The notes: generated from the letters alone by a model not told the origin. Shown: positions 34,207 to 39,807, counted from the first letter of the stretch. The stretch is 45,823 nucleotides of DNA from Nitrospira japonica (GCA_020725385.1 DYFC01000018.1:1-45823); one strand, 5' to 3'. Made by a program: numbers and translations.

Positions 34207-34374
34207 ATGCCAGCATACGAATTTAATTGTAAGTCATGCGGAAAAGATTTTACGGTATTCCTCTCTATCAAAGAGTTTGAAAAAAATCCAAGTATAATTT
34301 GTGAGCATTGCAAAAGTAACAATGTAACAAGAAAGCTTAGTGGATTTTTTGCTAAAACAAGCAAGAAATCTTAA
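34207..34374 (+). CDS. Small FmdB-type zinc ribbon protein
   Basis: AAGGAGG lies 5-6 nt before this ATG. The 55-residue product starts MPAYEFNCKSCGKDF and has a second pair CEHC about 20 residues later, the CxxC...CxxC zinc ribbon of the FmdB/CxxC_CxxC_SSSS family, followed by a short basic, Ser-containing tail. The family role is unclear; it was first noted near formamidase genes and is common as a small single gene. It lies 58 nt after the M16 protease and ends 16 bp from the convergent response regulator gene. Confidence 0.88.
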   Translation: MPAYEFNCKSCGKDFTVFLSIKEFEKNPSIICEHCKSNNVTRKLSGFFAKTSKKS

Positions 34375-34390: not shown

Positions 34391-34774
34391 TTAATCTAAT
34401 TTTATTTGAAGAATTTCGCTTACTTTATTTAGTAAATCATTTATATTAAAAGGTTTTGTTATATAAAAATCAGCGCCAGAGGCTTTAGCTTTTTCCCTGT
34501 CAGCTTCTTGTCCTTTGGCAGTCAAAATTACAATATAAGGTATTTTTTCCGGAGGCTCGCTCTTGATTTTTTGACAAACTTCAAACCCGTTCATTTTTGG
34601 CATCATGACATCAAGAAAAATTAATTCGGGTTGTTTTTCTCTTATAATATCAAGAGCAACGAGACCGTTCTCGGCAGTGAGAATTTCAACGTTTTTTTCT
34701 TCAAAAGGTTCGAGAATTTGCTCTAAGAGATTTCGAATAATAGGGTCGTCATCTACTATTAATATTCTTTTCAT
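34391..34774 (-). CDS. Single-domain response regulator of the TusA-binding protein-kinase operon
   Basis: I start at the ATG at 34774, 1 nt after the kinase stop, where AAAGGAA precedes it by 5 nt; the longer frame would add 18 non-receiver residues and overlap the kinase. The 127 residues are one receiver domain: LIVDDDP, Asp55 in FLDVMMPKMNG, Thr in ILTAKG and Lys in YITKPF. It has no output domain. The upstream kinase is the expected phosphodonor, and the regulator should act through protein contacts or another regulator not seen here. Confidence 0.9.
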   Translation of the reverse strand: MKRILIVDDDPIIRNLLEQILEPFEEKNVEILTAENGLVALDIIREKQPELIFLDVMMPKMNGFEVCQKIKSEPPEKIPYIVILTAKGQEADREKAKASGADFYITKPFNINDLLNKVSEILQIKLD

Positions 34775-34775
34775 T

Positions 34776-36659
34776 TTATTCCTTTTCTGTATAATTGTAT
34801 TCCATTTTGTTGATATTTGAAACATCATTTATATTTTTCAAAGGAAGTGTAAAATAAAAAGTACTTCCTTTGCCAAGTTCGCTTTCAACCCATATTTTTC
34901 CACCATAGTGTTCAATTATCTGTTTGCATATGGAAAGTCCGAGTCCGGTGCCTGTTGGTTTATCTGTAAGTGTATCACCTGCCTGCCTGAATTTTTCAAA
35001 TACATGATCTTTTTCTGTTTCAGAAATGCCGATTCCGGTATCAGAAACACTTACTAAAATACTATTGTCTAATTTTTTTGCTTTACAAGTTACAGAACCG
35101 GTGTCGGTAAATTTAACTGCATTAGAAAGAAGATTTATAATAACCTGAATTATCCTATCTTTGTCACATATGATTTCGGGTAGATTTTCTTCAATATCTT
35201 TTATTAATAGAAGTTTCTTTTGCTCAAAAAGCGCAGATGTCGCGATAATAGCCTGTTCAATCGCATCAGCAGGACGTACATTTTCAAGTTTCCAATCAAT
35301 TCTTCCAGCCTCAAGTTTGGAGATATCAAGAACATCGTTTATTAGAGCAGTAAGGCGTTCACTCTCTGAAAGTATGATATTTATATTATCCCGAATGCGA
35401 GAAATAGATTTAAGAACCCTTTTGTTATCATTTGTTACATTAGGAAATATATCTTCTTCGAGTCTTTTCTTAATAATTTCTGTAAAACCTCTCACAGAGG
35501 TTAAAGGTGTTCTTAATTCATGCGAAACAGTAGATATGAAGTCAGTTTTCATACGATCAACTTCTTTTTCAGATGTAATATCTCTTATGAGAATTACGGC
35601 TCCAATTCCTTTGTCATCTGATTGTATTGTTTCTTTATGAATCCCTGTAGCAACAGCCTTGCCGATTCTTTTATGAGCAAGTTCTATTTCAGTTGTGAAT
35701 ATCTGATCAGCATTCATCCTGCTTTTTTCGACAACCTCTGCAAAATTATCACCAAAAATACTTCTGCAATTCCTCCCGATAAAATCCGATTCTCTCATAT
35801 TGAACATGTATGACAAAGCAGGGTTAACATGTGTAATCACACCGTCGGTATCTGTAACAAGAAGACCATCTGCCATATTATCTATTACTGCTGTCAGATA
35901 AGCAAGGGTATTTTGAAGTTCCACAATTGCGTCATTTATAGCCTGTTCGTAACGGTCAAAGACCTCGTGAAGATCGGTTGCCATAGATTTCATTGTATTA
36001 GCGAGAAGACCTATTTCATCATCAGATTTTATATCAACCGGAGAAGAAAAATCATGCAAGGTAAGCTTCTTGGCATAATCTGTCAAAGCATTCAATGGTT
36101 GGGAAACTTTATTAACAAGAATATAGGCTATAGTTATACTGAAAATGAATATAAGCGAAATTAATATTAATTGACGAATCATTGCTGATTTCATTTGAGC
36201 CATGATATTGTTTTTGTCCATTCCTACATGAACATAACCTGCAATGCCCTCGAGTATAGGAGATGTAATGTCAATAAAGGTACCCAACCCTTCAAATACT
36301 ATTTCTTTTACATAAGTATCTCTTGGCTTATCATTTTTTATTTTTGAGATTTCATCGGGGATTGTTGGAATAAATGTGTGTGAGATTATATCTCCATTTG
36401 CATCAACAACGAATATATATGATACACCGCTTATTTCAAGGAATCGATCTATCATAGCCTGAATAGTAGAAGCATCTCTATTTAAGAGAGTTTCGATGCT
36501 TGAGCTTGCAACACTTTTTGCGATAGCGGTTCCTTTGCTTTTGTATTCCTGGAGAAGGTCATTATAGAGATTCCAGCCTGTAGAAATTGCAATTGTAAAA
36601 GCTATTATCATGAATAGGATTATAATCAACAACAGGGTTTTCTTGAAAAGTTTTGACAT
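34776..36659 (-). CDS. Membrane sensor histidine kinase: Cache-like sensor, HAMP, PAS, HisKA, HATPase
   Basis: The 627 residues have membrane segments at about 8-27 and 162-182, with an external domain between them that resembles a single Cache fold (YIFVVDANGDIISHTF). HAMP (183-237), a coiled stretch, PAS (about 255-365), HisKA with His380 (STVSHELRTPLTSVRGF) and HATPase (SVSDTGIGIS, GTGLGLSICKQI) follow. It has no receiver domain. Its start shares one base with the stop of the periplasmic binding protein gene, so the two are translationally coupled. The binding protein is therefore a likely ligand-presenting partner for the external domain, with the single-domain regulator just downstream. 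Confidence 0.92.
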   Translation of the reverse strand: MSKLFKKTLLLIIILFMIIAFTIAISTGWNLYNDLLQEYKSKGTAIAKSVASSSIETLLNRDASTIQAMIDRFLEISGVSYIFVVDANGDIISHTFIPTIPDEISKIKNDKPRDTYVKEIVFEGLGTFIDITSPILEGIAGYVHVGMDKNNIMAQMKSAMIRQLILISLIFIFSITIAYILVNKVSQPLNALTDYAKKLTLHDFSSPVDIKSDDEIGLLANTMKSMATDLHEVFDRYEQAINDAIVELQNTLAYLTAVIDNMADGLLVTDTDGVITHVNPALSYMFNMRESDFIGRNCRSIFGDNFAEVVEKSRMNADQIFTTEIELAHKRIGKAVATGIHKETIQSDDKGIGAVILIRDITSEKEVDRMKTDFISTVSHELRTPLTSVRGFTEIIKKRLEEDIFPNVTNDNKRVLKSISRIRDNINIILSESERLTALINDVLDISKLEAGRIDWKLENVRPADAIEQAIIATSALFEQKKLLLIKDIEENLPEIICDKDRIIQVIINLLSNAVKFTDTGSVTCKAKKLDNSILVSVSDTGIGISETEKDHVFEKFRQAGDTLTDKPTGTGLGLSICKQIIEHYGGKIWVESELGKGSTFYFTLPLKNINDVSNINKMEYNYTEKE

Positions 36660-37921
36660 TATTTAATTTTCCACCTATCCCAGTTTTTTAAAGGAACAAA
36701 TCTTCCATCCTGAAAAGTTGTATAATAAACTTTATCAATTCCCTGATGTTTATCCGGAGAAAAACTGACATTGACATCAATTCCTATGTCAAGATTCTTT
36801 ATACCTTCAACTACTTGTTTAATGTTTGATTTCACAATCTGTTTTCCCATTCTTTTTAATATCTCGACCAAAAGCTTGGCATTTAAAAAACCTTCAAAAC
36901 TTACAAAGCTATATCGTAAGGGTTTATAATTCTTATCGATCAAATTATCAGGTGGTATAGGATCATAAGCATCTATCAGGTCTCTATATTGACGAACAGC
37001 GCTAAGAGAGATGTCTTCATAACTCGGTACAACCTGAGAATTTATAAGGTTTTTAGTATAGGTTTTGCCGGTTTCCTGTTCTGCTTTCATGAGTAGATCA
37101 ATTAAAAATTCACTTCCAACAAAAGAAACATTTGCTATCGGCACATTCCAACCCGAGTCACGAGCATCCCTTATAAAAGCTGCACATGCTGCATAGGCAC
37201 CGACTGAGATAATAGCATCCGGATTACTTTTCCTTAGTATATCAACCTGGATTTTCATACTTTCATTGAACTTTGTACCTCTTTTATAAGTTGCTTCTCC
37301 GACTATATCGAGGCCATACTTTGCAAGAGTCAATTTTACACCGTTCCATCCACTTCTTCCATAAGCATCTGCTTGATAGAAAACAGCAATGCGTTTCCTG
37401 CCTATTTTGATAAAATTATTGACAAGTCCTTCGGTCTCCTGAAAATAAGATGCTCTGAAATTGAAGACATATTTATCATATGGTGGTTGTCTATGCGGTT
37501 CAGCGCCTGTAAAAGGAAAAAATAAATATATATTTCTGTTACTATAACTTTTTAGTAAAGGTAAAACCCTTGTTACTGTCGGAGTTCCAAGATAATCAAA
37601 TAAAAGAAAGACATTGTCTTTTTCGATAAGTTTTATCGTATTTTCAATCGCAGGAGTAGGGTTATAACCATCATCATAAGGAATGATGATTATTTTTTTA
37701 CCATTTATTCCTCCATTATCATTTATATAATTTATATATGCCATTGACCCTCGATAGAGTTCACTTCCAAGTCCTCCGGTAGGTCCTTTGAATGCAGCCG
37801 ACATTCCTATAAGGATTTCATTAGAATTTGCTTCTGCACTCGAAAAGATTAAAAAAATCCCGATTAAATGAACTAATAATTTAAAACTGAACCTGACAAC
37901 GTTTAACACCTTCACCTTCAT
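36659..37921 (-). CDS. Periplasmic binding protein, Leu/Ile/Val (type 1) family
   Basis: A signal peptide ends near SSAEA at about residue 32. The mature protein starts NEILIGMSAAFKGPTGGLG, with the two-lobed type 1 fold shown by SELYRGSMAYINYINDNGGINGKKI, KRIAVFYQADAYGRSGWNG and DAIISVGAYAACAAFIRDARDSG. Such proteins bind amino acids, amides or small organic acids; the ligand here is unknown. No permease or ATPase gene is nearby. The gene lies between tusA (41-nt overlap with its end) and the histidine kinase (1-nt overlap), so it most likely delivers a ligand signal to the kinase instead of a transporter. Confidence 0.88.
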   Translation of the reverse strand: MKVKVLNVVRFSFKLLVHLIGIFLIFSSAEANSNEILIGMSAAFKGPTGGLGSELYRGSMAYINYINDNGGINGKKIIIIPYDDGYNPTPAIENTIKLIEKDNVFLLFDYLGTPTVTRVLPLLKSYSNRNIYLFFPFTGAEPHRQPPYDKYVFNFRASYFQETEGLVNNFIKIGRKRIAVFYQADAYGRSGWNGVKLTLAKYGLDIVGEATYKRGTKFNESMKIQVDILRKSNPDAIISVGAYAACAAFIRDARDSGWNVPIANVSFVGSEFLIDLLMKAEQETGKTYTKNLINSQVVPSYEDISLSAVRQYRDLIDAYDPIPPDNLIDKNYKPLRYSFVSFEGFLNAKLLVEILKRMGKQIVKSNIKQVVEGIKNLDIGIDVNVSFSPDKHQGIDKVYYTTFQDGRFVPLKNWDRWKIK

Positions 37922-38105
37922 CTTTTATCCATAATAAAGTTTTATTATTTCGCCTGCACCAGTTTTTGACATCATTTTCAAATGTTGAGCAATCAGCAAT
38001 AACTTCAAGAATGTCATTCTTTTTTAGTTTTAAGGCTTTTATGGTCATCTGAATTGTGGGCTGCGGACACTTTAATCCCCTGGCATCAAGCAAAACAACG
38101 GACAA
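37881..38105 (-). CDS. TusA-family sulfurtransferase
   Basis: The 74 residues contain the TusA motif GLKCPQPT with Cys13, and a two-layer alpha/beta pattern (LEVIADCSTFENDVKNWCRRN). TusA proteins carry a persulfide for tRNA thiolation, molybdopterin and sulfur metabolism. The start is TTG at 38105, placed 7 nt after AGGAGG. The end overlaps the binding-protein gene by 41 nt in another frame, so it is the first gene of the operon. A sulfur carrier next to a binding protein and kinase is unexpected; it may be a regulatory partner or just share the promoter. Confidence 0.88.
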   Translation of the reverse strand: MSVVLLDARGLKCPQPTIQMTIKALKLKKNDILEVIADCSTFENDVKNWCRRNNKTLLWIKDEGEGVKRCQVQF

Positions 38106-38285: not shown

Positions 38286-38404
38286 TTGCCTCATTTAAAA
38301 ATCTAAATGAAAAACCTTTCGGTTGCCTTAACTAAAATATATCTTTAGTCCTTTTTAATCCTTGTAATGTTTTACTGTTTCATTTAGATTTTTAAATGAG
38401 GCAA
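38286..38404. repeat. Perfect 27-bp inverted repeat with 65-bp spacer
   Basis: The arms 38286-38312 and 38378-38404 are exact reverse complements (TTGCCTCATTTA... and ...TAAATGAGGCAA). The spacer holds smaller stems: AACC/GGTT and ACTAAA/TTTAGT (38331-38336 with 38344-38349). A third, imperfect copy of the right arm begins near 38412 (GTTTCAGTTAGATTTTT). It lies in the 389-bp gap between tusA and rnpB. It may be a small non-autonomous element, a cruciform or a strong bidirectional transcription barrier; no coding frame is visible. Confidence 0.85.
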
Positions 38405-38494: not shown

Positions 38495-38875
38495 ATCAGA
38501 GCAGGTTGTGTGGCTGCTCCATAGTTTAAGAATACTTATGGAGAGGAAAGTCTGAGCTCTACAGGGCAAGGCGGTCGTTAATAGCGACTGGGGGTAACCC
38601 TAAGGAAAGTGCCACAGAAAGGGAAACCGCTTTGTTATAAACGAAGCAAGGGTGAAAAGGTGAGGTAAGAGCTCACCAGATGAGACGGTAACGACTCATG
38701 CTTGGTAAACCCCGCCTTGAGCAAGGTCAAATAGGTTCTGCTTTGAGAGGTGCCCCCTCGAATCCTGAATTCTACAGGAGGCAGAACGGGTTGTGACCGC
38801 AATAATCCTGCAGTAATGCCGGATATTAGATGAATAGCCACAATAACAGAACTCGGCTTATAAGCCTGCTCTGAT
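38495..38875 (+). ncRNA. rnpB: RNase P RNA (bacterial type A)
   Basis: The ends pair as P1: ATCAGAGCAGG (38495-38505) with CCTGCTCTGAT (38865-38875). The conserved core is plain: GAGAGGAAAGTC near 38540, ACAGAAAGGGAAACCGC in the middle, and the closing AACAGAACTCGGCTTAT segment near 38844-38862 that forms P4 with the 5' core. It is the catalytic RNA that trims tRNA 5' ends. At 381 nt the size is typical. No terminator hairpin follows; the lysR gene starts only 23 nt later. Confidence 0.96.
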
Positions 38876-38898
38876 TATAAATTTAATTGGAGGTTTAG

Positions 38899-39807
38899 AT
38901 GGAAGATCATAAACTGAAAGTTTTCTGCACAGTAGCTGAAACAAAGAGCTTTTCAAAAACCTCGGAAATTATTCATTTAACGCAACCAGCGGTGAGTCTT
39001 CAGATACAAGCCCTTGAAGAAAGATATGAAACTAAATTGTTTGATAGATCTTCAAGTACAGTGACCCTCACACCTGCAGGCGAAGTTCTTTATAAATTTG
39101 CAAAAGAAATTCTTGCACTTTATGCAGCAGCCGAGAAAGCCATTAGTAAACAAATTGGACTTGTAAAAGGCAGTCTTACAATTGGCGCAGGTTCGAATAT
39201 AGGCAACTACATTTTACCCAGTGTTATAACTGATTTCAAGAATACCAATCCTAAAATAAAAATATACCTTTTAGTTGGTAATTCAAAACGTGTTATCGAA
39301 TTACTTAATTCCGGTAATATTGATATTGGTTTAGTTGAAGGTGATATTTCACGACAGAAAATGGTTGTTCGAAAACTTATTTCGGATGAGTTAATACTTA
39401 TAGTGCCTCCATCACATCCATGGGCGAAAAGAAAAGATGTGTCAATCTCAGAAATTGTGAGGGAACCTTTTATATTCAGGGAGGCTGGTTCAGGAACGAG
39501 ACAGATGATTGAGAAATATCTTGCAAGACATGGTATTACCCCGCATGACATGAAAATAAGCACTGTTCTTGGAAGTACTGAGGCTATTAAAGACGCTGTT
39601 GAAAATGGTCTTGGTGTCTCAATAATATCAAGATGGGCTGTGCGGAAAGAAAGTAAATACGGCACATTAAAAGCACTTAATATAAAAGAAGAAAAAATGG
39701 TGAGGGACTTTTCCCTTGTAATCAACAAAAACTCGGTTTCTTCAAATTCACTCGAAGAGTTTCTTGCTTTTCTCAAGGCGTATCCATTCGATAAATTACT
39801 CCAGTAG
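38899..39807 (+). CDS. LysR-type transcriptional regulator
   Basis: TTGGAGG precedes the ATG. The 302 residues have the N-terminal winged helix (LKVFCTVAETKSFSKTSEII, LTQPAVSLQIQALE) and a type 2 binding-protein-like effector domain (GSLTIGAGSNIGNYILPSVI, GLVEGDI, EAGSGTRQMIEKYL, GLGVSIISRWAV). LysR regulators bind a small molecule and switch a usually adjacent operon. The nearest candidates are its own gene with rnpB, or the divergent tusA operon about 790 bp upstream. The effector is unknown; CysB/CysL-like sulfur regulators are one group with similar N-termini. Confidence 0.92.
   Translation: MEDHKLKVFCTVAETKSFSKTSEIIHLTQPAVSLQIQALEERYETKLFDRSSSTVTLTPAGEVLYKFAKEILALYAAAEKAISKQIGLVKGSLTIGAGSNIGNYILPSVITDFKNTNPKIKIYLLVGNSKRVIELLNSGNIDIGLVEGDISRQKMVVRKLISDELILIVPPSHPWAKRKDVSISEIVREPFIFREAGSGTRQMIEKYLARHGITPHDMKISTVLGSTEAIKDAVENGLGVSIISRWAVRKESKYGTLKALNIKEEKMVRDFSLVINKNSVSSNSLEEFLAFLKAYPFDKLLQ

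Follow-up and report, generated by a model that had tools for sequence, protein, structure and literature searches.

The question raised by a four-gene operon of Nitrospira japonica (GCA_020725385.1 DYFC01000018.1:1-45823; this whole stretch of 45,823 nucleotides is hereafter called the window) is why a gene of the sulfur carrier TusA stands at the head of genes for a periplasmic binding protein (SBP), a sensor histidine kinase (HK), and a stand-alone receiver (RR). According to our analysis, the operon most probably (about 0.7 by our estimate) encodes a periplasmic sensor in which SBP would act on the Cache domain of HK and the latter on the lone RR, with tusA being a carrier gene from a lost Hdr/hydrogenase cassette and not a sensor of the ligand.

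Table 1. Location of the operon genes and of the adjacent RNA gene in the window.
Feature	Coordinates	Strand	Characteristics
tusA	37881..38105	-	74 aa, TTG start behind AGGAGG
SBP, type-I periplasmic binding protein (Peripla_BP_6)	36659..37921	-	420 aa
Sensor histidine kinase	34776..36659	-	627 aa, TM-sCache_3_2-TM-HAMP-PAS-HisKA-HATPase
Periplasmic single Cache domain of the kinase, residues 32-158	36186..36566	-	part conserved with SBP across phyla
Stand-alone receiver, response regulator without output domain	34391..34774	-	127 aa, Asp55
RNase P RNA	38498-38876	+	divergent from tusA

The coordinates and families of the four genes, which an earlier note had described as joined by a 41-nt overlap, a 1-nt overlap, and a 1-nt gap, were verified (Table 1). 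The 41-nt overlap of tusA and SBP was read from the sequence with the SBP ATG at 37921, and would be 29–35 nt if either of the next two in-frame GTG codons were the start. The SBP and HK genes overlapped by 1 nt (TAATG at 36659), and one base lay between the HK stop codon (34776–34778) and the RR ATG (34774). A longer RR open reading frame starting at 34828 was considered unlikely, the orthologues being only 121–130 aa long. Pfam searches identified TusA (E-value = 2.8e-16, above the PF01206 cut-off), Peripla_BP_6 (2.1e-42), and Response_reg (6.2e-31), as well as HAMP, PAS, HisKA, and HATPase_c in HK; the external Cache-like domain previously attributed to the kinase proved to be sCache_3_2 (4.6e-14). 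The SBP sequence began with a hydrophobic signal sequence without a lipobox, the HK motifs were intact (SHELRTPL with His380, N and G boxes), and RR retained its phospho-acceptor motif at Asp55. No ABC or other transporter gene was found adjoining the operon, in agreement with its earlier description as lacking a permease or ATPase nearby. Two other Liv-type permease/ATPase clusters were present elsewhere in the genome (contigs C12 and C62); contig C12 ended before any SBP of its Liv cluster came into view.

The conservation of the operon was evaluated in 176 genomes of Thermodesulfovibrionales, in which membership in the SBP clade was sharply delimited (E-value < 1e-200, the next best being 1e-94). 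An SBP of this clade was present in 25 of them, and in 23 of these 25, representing eight genera and three families, tusA was located directly upstream of the SBP gene, with a gap of at most about 270 nt and often with a 19-nt overlap. The complete order tusA-SBP-HK-RR was seen again in loci L035–L040, and the named relatives carrying the operon included Thermodesulfovibrio and other Nitrospirota. Since the order recurred in other loci and the tusA-SBP adjacency was kept in nearly all SBP-bearing genomes, the four-gene arrangement is not due to chance. It should be noted that the retention of tusA with the other genes, on which the earlier note had made its reading depend, held inside Thermodesulfovibrionales, whereas outside the order TusA was absent from the SBP-receptor pair in all phyla.

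When the Cache domain alone was used as a query against the same 176 genomes, strong matches (E-value < 1e-40) were obtained in 25 genomes, which were exactly the 25 genomes with SBP, and the two were always adjacent; a Cache domain without SBP was encountered in genome G100 and a few others, all with weaker matches. Relatives of SBP outside the order were sought in 84,980 genomes by a scan that was keyed on two short peptide patterns and is not a census. According to the record titles, they belonged to Planctomycetota (including Scalindua and Gemmata), Chloroflexi, Rokubacteria, Dadabacteria, Cyanobacteria (Symploca, Moorena, Oscillatoria, and Argonema), Deltaproteobacteria (including Desulfomonile), and Acidobacteria/Vicinamibacterales. 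No relatives were detected in a scan of viral contigs, and plasmids gave no meaningful match. A receptor with a Cache-HAMP half of the window type was encoded directly downstream of SBP in 59 of 62 loci, members of the order included, as counted with a sensor profile built partly from the same loci; the pairwise identities, the Pfam assignments, and the search by order are independent of this profile. In L059, SBP was present but the receptor was not, and in L042 and L043 diverged che-type SBPs stood beside chemoreceptors with a different sensor domain. Outside the TusA-linked set, the sensor halves were 34–56% identical to that of the window (except for L075, which was in a wrong reading frame), and the cytoplasmic halves were often unrelated to that of the window kinase. 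In place of HisKA, Pfam identified a SpoIIE phosphatase (L063, L078, L081, and L095), an MCP signalling domain (L066 and L087), a sigma-54 activator (L072), or a guanylate cyclase (L076). The distances between SBPs correlated with those between the sensors (r = 0.90 overall and r = 0.81 outside the TusA-linked set), both coefficients being inflated by shared species history. Thus, the suggestion of the earlier note that SBP presents its ligand to the kinase was reinforced, since the Cache domain was inseparable from SBP in 25 of 25 genomes and the pair was kept while outputs were swapped. Signalling from SBP to Cache, with presumed physical contact, is the best reading of these comparisons and is strongly supported; the pair would act as a portable input module for kinase, phosphatase, chemoreceptor, sigma-54 activator, or cyclase outputs. 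The set is suited to testing the activation of Cache receptors by binding proteins and to finding a shared ligand.

In the LuxP-LuxQ and TorT-TorS systems, a type-I periplasmic binding protein and a kinase containing a periplasmic domain are encoded next to each other, and the fold of this domain in LuxQ is Cache/PAS-like. The window operon resembles them in having an SBP gene beside that of a periplasmic-domain kinase, in lacking a transporter, and in the Cache/PAS-like fold. It differs in that the kinase carries a single sCache_3_2 domain, SBP belongs to Peripla_BP_6 and is no AI-2 or TMAO binder, the operon includes a stand-alone receiver and tusA, and the SBP-Cache pair of this type also occurs in combination with phosphatase, chemoreceptor, sigma-54, and cyclase outputs. 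The exported SBP was encoded together with the periplasmic-domain kinase and was co-conserved with the sensor domain, as expected of a kinase activated by a binding protein. SBP is therefore read as serving signalling in a LuxPQ-like mode, with no membership in that family being claimed. The location of SBP genes beside the kinases that they activate is known, for example, for AgtS/AruS (PMC11113362). Consequently, the earlier statement that no such system has been described stands for the exact gene set, which was absent from the open-licence papers searched, but not for its SBP-kinase part; no description of an output-swapping SBP-Cache pair was found in these papers.

The predicted structures were in line with this assignment. 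SBP was modelled by AlphaFold as a type-I periplasmic binding protein (pLDDT 93), and its closest PDB match was the Rhodopirellula baltica SBP 4kv7 both by fold (6.7e-31) and by sequence profile (E-value = 2.4e-77); the title of 4kv7 names no function. A ligand prediction from near folds was dropped and no ligand is named here, because the close fold matches bind compounds as varied as amino acids, aromatic acids, urea, and amides, and the title of the nearest one names no ligand. The sensor was modelled as a single Cache domain between two long helices (pLDDT 85), with WalK, CitA, and DcuS as fold relatives, from which it differs in being paired with SBP. In a weak profile alignment with CitA (E-value of about 0.01–0.02), the His of the compared Arg/His/Arg/Lys set, which we take to be the citrate-binding residues of CitA, was kept and the Arg and Lys positions were not; such a loss, within the limits of this alignment, would be expected if the Cache domain reads a protein and not a free anion.

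These data also bear on the view that SBP continues to serve an ABC transporter whose genes lie elsewhere, the kinase being merely its operon neighbor. SBP has the fold of ABC binding proteins, and the Liv-type clusters of the genome, one of them cut off by the contig end before its own SBP is visible, could offer a partner. However, Liv/HAAT proteins are ordinarily encoded with LivHMGF, and SBPs of the window type were never so in the examined loci; no ABC ATPase adjoined SBP in the relatives' loci by a motif search that lone permeases would escape. Moreover, a transporter role is hard to square with a Cache receptor directly downstream, whatever the output, in nearly all loci across the phyla, and this view is considered very improbable.

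The remaining part of the question concerns tusA. The window TusA contained the CPxP motif (Cys13, in GLKCPQPT), which was invariant in its clade, as were Cys39, Cys50, and Cys70, and it scored 32.6 bits against the 78-bit cut-off of PRK00299, the E. coli-type equivalog. As judged from these sequence features, it is evidently a member of a subfamily other than the E. coli type, with extra conserved cysteines. The dN/dS of tusA relative to the congener G001 was 0.025, a rough estimate based on one nonsynonymous change in 74 codons, and the values for SBP, HK, RR, and the control M16 gene were 0.062, 0.059, 0.086, and 0.033, respectively; among the operon genes, constraint was thus strongest on tusA. 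Such strong purifying selection indicates that tusA is functional and not leftover debris. Among 396 sampled genomes of the phylum, strong matches to the subfamily were confined to Thermodesulfovibrionales. In the TusA tree, 20 of 21 operon-type TusAs grouped together, the remaining one (L060) being placed among the cassette TusAs; since few branches of this tree, built on 74 columns, were strongly supported, it is taken as merely consistent with the interpretation given below.

In the relatives, the TusA subfamily was the last gene of a cassette composed of VhuA/VhuG-like [NiFe]-hydrogenase, HdrA, MvhD, and TusA genes. In 12 of 12 Thermodesulfovibrio-type loci whose upstream sequence was long enough, tusA was overlapped or abutted by a gene for an HdrA-like protein of about 605 aa with Fer4 and FAD domains, and in L049 and L060 the whole run MvhG-MvhA-HdrA-MvhD-TusA led straight into SBP-HK. 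The cassette proteins were most similar to VhuG, VhuA, and HdrA2, and MvhD to HdrA2/VhuD, all below the NCBIfam cut-offs; the cassette thus resembles the VhuAGD/HdrA modules, and the genome of the window is without it. Cassette genes were located upstream of tusA in all 33 further loci of the TusA subfamily, and in 20 of these 33 the gene was directly followed by signalling genes of at least five kinds, namely, chemosensory clusters (CheW-MCP-CheB-CheR-CheA), CZB-MCP, Cache-MCP, RR-PAS-HK, and HD-GYP/RR/HK. This repeated junction of hydrogenase-Hdr-TusA genes with signalling genes is the most unexpected point of the analysis, and no description of it was found in the open-licence papers. A link of TusA with Hdr-like proteins is known from sHdr-containing organisms (PMC11582611); in the relatives studied here, TusA differs in being the last cassette gene, often followed by signalling genes, and the cassette-operon arrangement was absent from the open-licence literature on TusA with HdrA/MvhD. 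No HdrB/HdrC or LbpA was recognised in the cassette loci on reading of N-termini, and no HdrB/HdrC-like subunits, LbpA, or DsrE were identified by Pfam beside tusA in the window. In the window's genome (96.6% complete), the search for the hydrogenase and the cassette HdrA returned only remote matches; those on contig C54 look QmoA/B-like. Judging from the gene order in the relatives, the TusA at the head of the operon is probably a descendant of an Hdr/[NiFe]-hydrogenase cassette formerly located directly upstream, and we infer a loss of the cassette in the lineage of the window rather than its gain elsewhere. The suggestion of the earlier note that TusA hints at the sensing of a sulfur compound is thereby disfavored, since the SBP-receptor pair occurs without TusA outside one order and TusA goes with HdrA/MvhD and [NiFe]-hydrogenase genes within it. 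Instead of a puzzle, tusA thus presents a specific connection with Hdr/hydrogenase metabolism that can be tested.

Other interpretations of tusA were weighed against this one. It could be a passenger, that is, a general sulfur carrier placed here by historical accident and linked neither to the sensor nor to Hdr. The fact that the SBP-receptor pair lacks tusA outside the order would agree with this, as would the presence in the genome of three further TusA-family genes and dsrA, but the tusA-SBP junction was kept in three families and even where HdrA was absent, and the subfamily repeatedly adjoined other signalling genes, which makes an accidental placement rather unlikely. Alternatively, TusA may take part in the signalling. 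It would then relay a persulfide or the redox state from HdrA/sulfur metabolism, with either the receiver or the cytoplasmic part of the receptor as the acceptor; a periplasmic ligand and the internal sulfur/redox status would thereby be integrated by the operon. The passage from cassette to signalling genes in the further loci, the retention of tusA beside the kinase gene in the absence of the cassette, and the strong constraint on tusA speak for such a role, and in Hyphomicrobium TusA has been proposed to supply a sulfane-sulfur repressor with sulfur (PMC11582611). However, physical involvement is not proven by gene neighborhood alone, TusA does not accompany the SBP-receptor pair in any of the other phyla, and the only kinase cysteine conserved in the TusA-linked set (21 of 22) was Cys525 in the ATPase domain, with none in PAS; participation of TusA in signalling is accordingly deemed improbable. 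A simple persulfide switch from TusA to the kinase is not favored, as the search for an acceptor cysteine in the kinase gave only Cys525. In a bolder and still more doubtful version, the four-cysteine TusA of Thermodesulfovibrionales is a physical link between the hydrogenase-HdrA-MvhD cassette and receptors, namely, chemoreceptors and the SBP-Cache kinase; the cell would then read its hydrogen/sulfur redox state as TusA persulfide in combination with the periplasmic ligand signal, and the window operon would be a form that retained the coupler and shed the hydrogenase.

In the preferred reading, namely, a periplasmic sensor accompanied by a carrier from a lost cassette, soluble SBP would capture a small ligand in the periplasm and, once loaded, would presumably dock on the kinase's single Cache domain. 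The signal would pass through HAMP/PAS to His380, this direction being presumed, and the phosphate would be transferred from His380 to Asp55 of the adjacent lone receiver. Since the receiver has no output domain, its phosphorylated form would probably act through protein contact. TusA would be a cytoplasmic sulfur carrier kept after the loss of the cassette, most likely as a target of, or a putative partner in, the sulfur/redox metabolism that the two-component system would adjust.

At its receiver end, the operon has a convergent neighbor, the M16 peptidase gene, and an M16 peptidase gene was likewise located beside the operon in four other loci (L035, L037, L038, and L040) of the family to which the window belongs.

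In many Thermodesulfovibrionales, the Mvh/Vhu-like [NiFe] hydrogenase–HdrA–MvhD–TusA cassette was followed directly by a chemoreceptor gene or by complete chemosensory gene clusters. Among the TusA loci of the order (L144–L182), signalling genes came next in 20 of the 33 cassette loci, as exemplified by L149, L154, L156, L164, L166 and L170–L175. Another TusA that shares this four-cysteine type (locus L143) had no adjoining Hdr, hydrogenase or signalling genes. Diverged cousins of the SBP (36–41% identity) were located within the CheA/CheW/CheB/CheR clusters of loci L042, L043 and L151, with a chemoreceptor immediately 3′ of the cousin in each, the sensor domain of which was not of the sCache_3_2 type.

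The perfect inverted repeat lying between tusA and the RNase P RNA had 38 matches across the genome, most of them partial and many at contig ends, and is therefore probably a mobile-element or MITE-like end. The LysR regulator was the divergent neighbour of the operon, past RNase P. The FmdB-like frame, which was below the ORF-list length and was read by eye, follows the M16 gene and converges on the gene for the receiver.

Coordinates of the second TusA and of features flanking the operon
Feature	Location	Strand	Description
Second TusA (L143)	G000 C28:25539-25760		Four-cysteine type
Inverted repeat	window 38286-38404		27 nt, 65-nt spacing
LysR regulator	window 38899-39807	+	Selenium-metabolism-associated LysR family, over NCBIfam cut-off
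FmdB-like zinc-ribbon reading frame	window 34207-34374	+	55 aa, CxxC...CxxC
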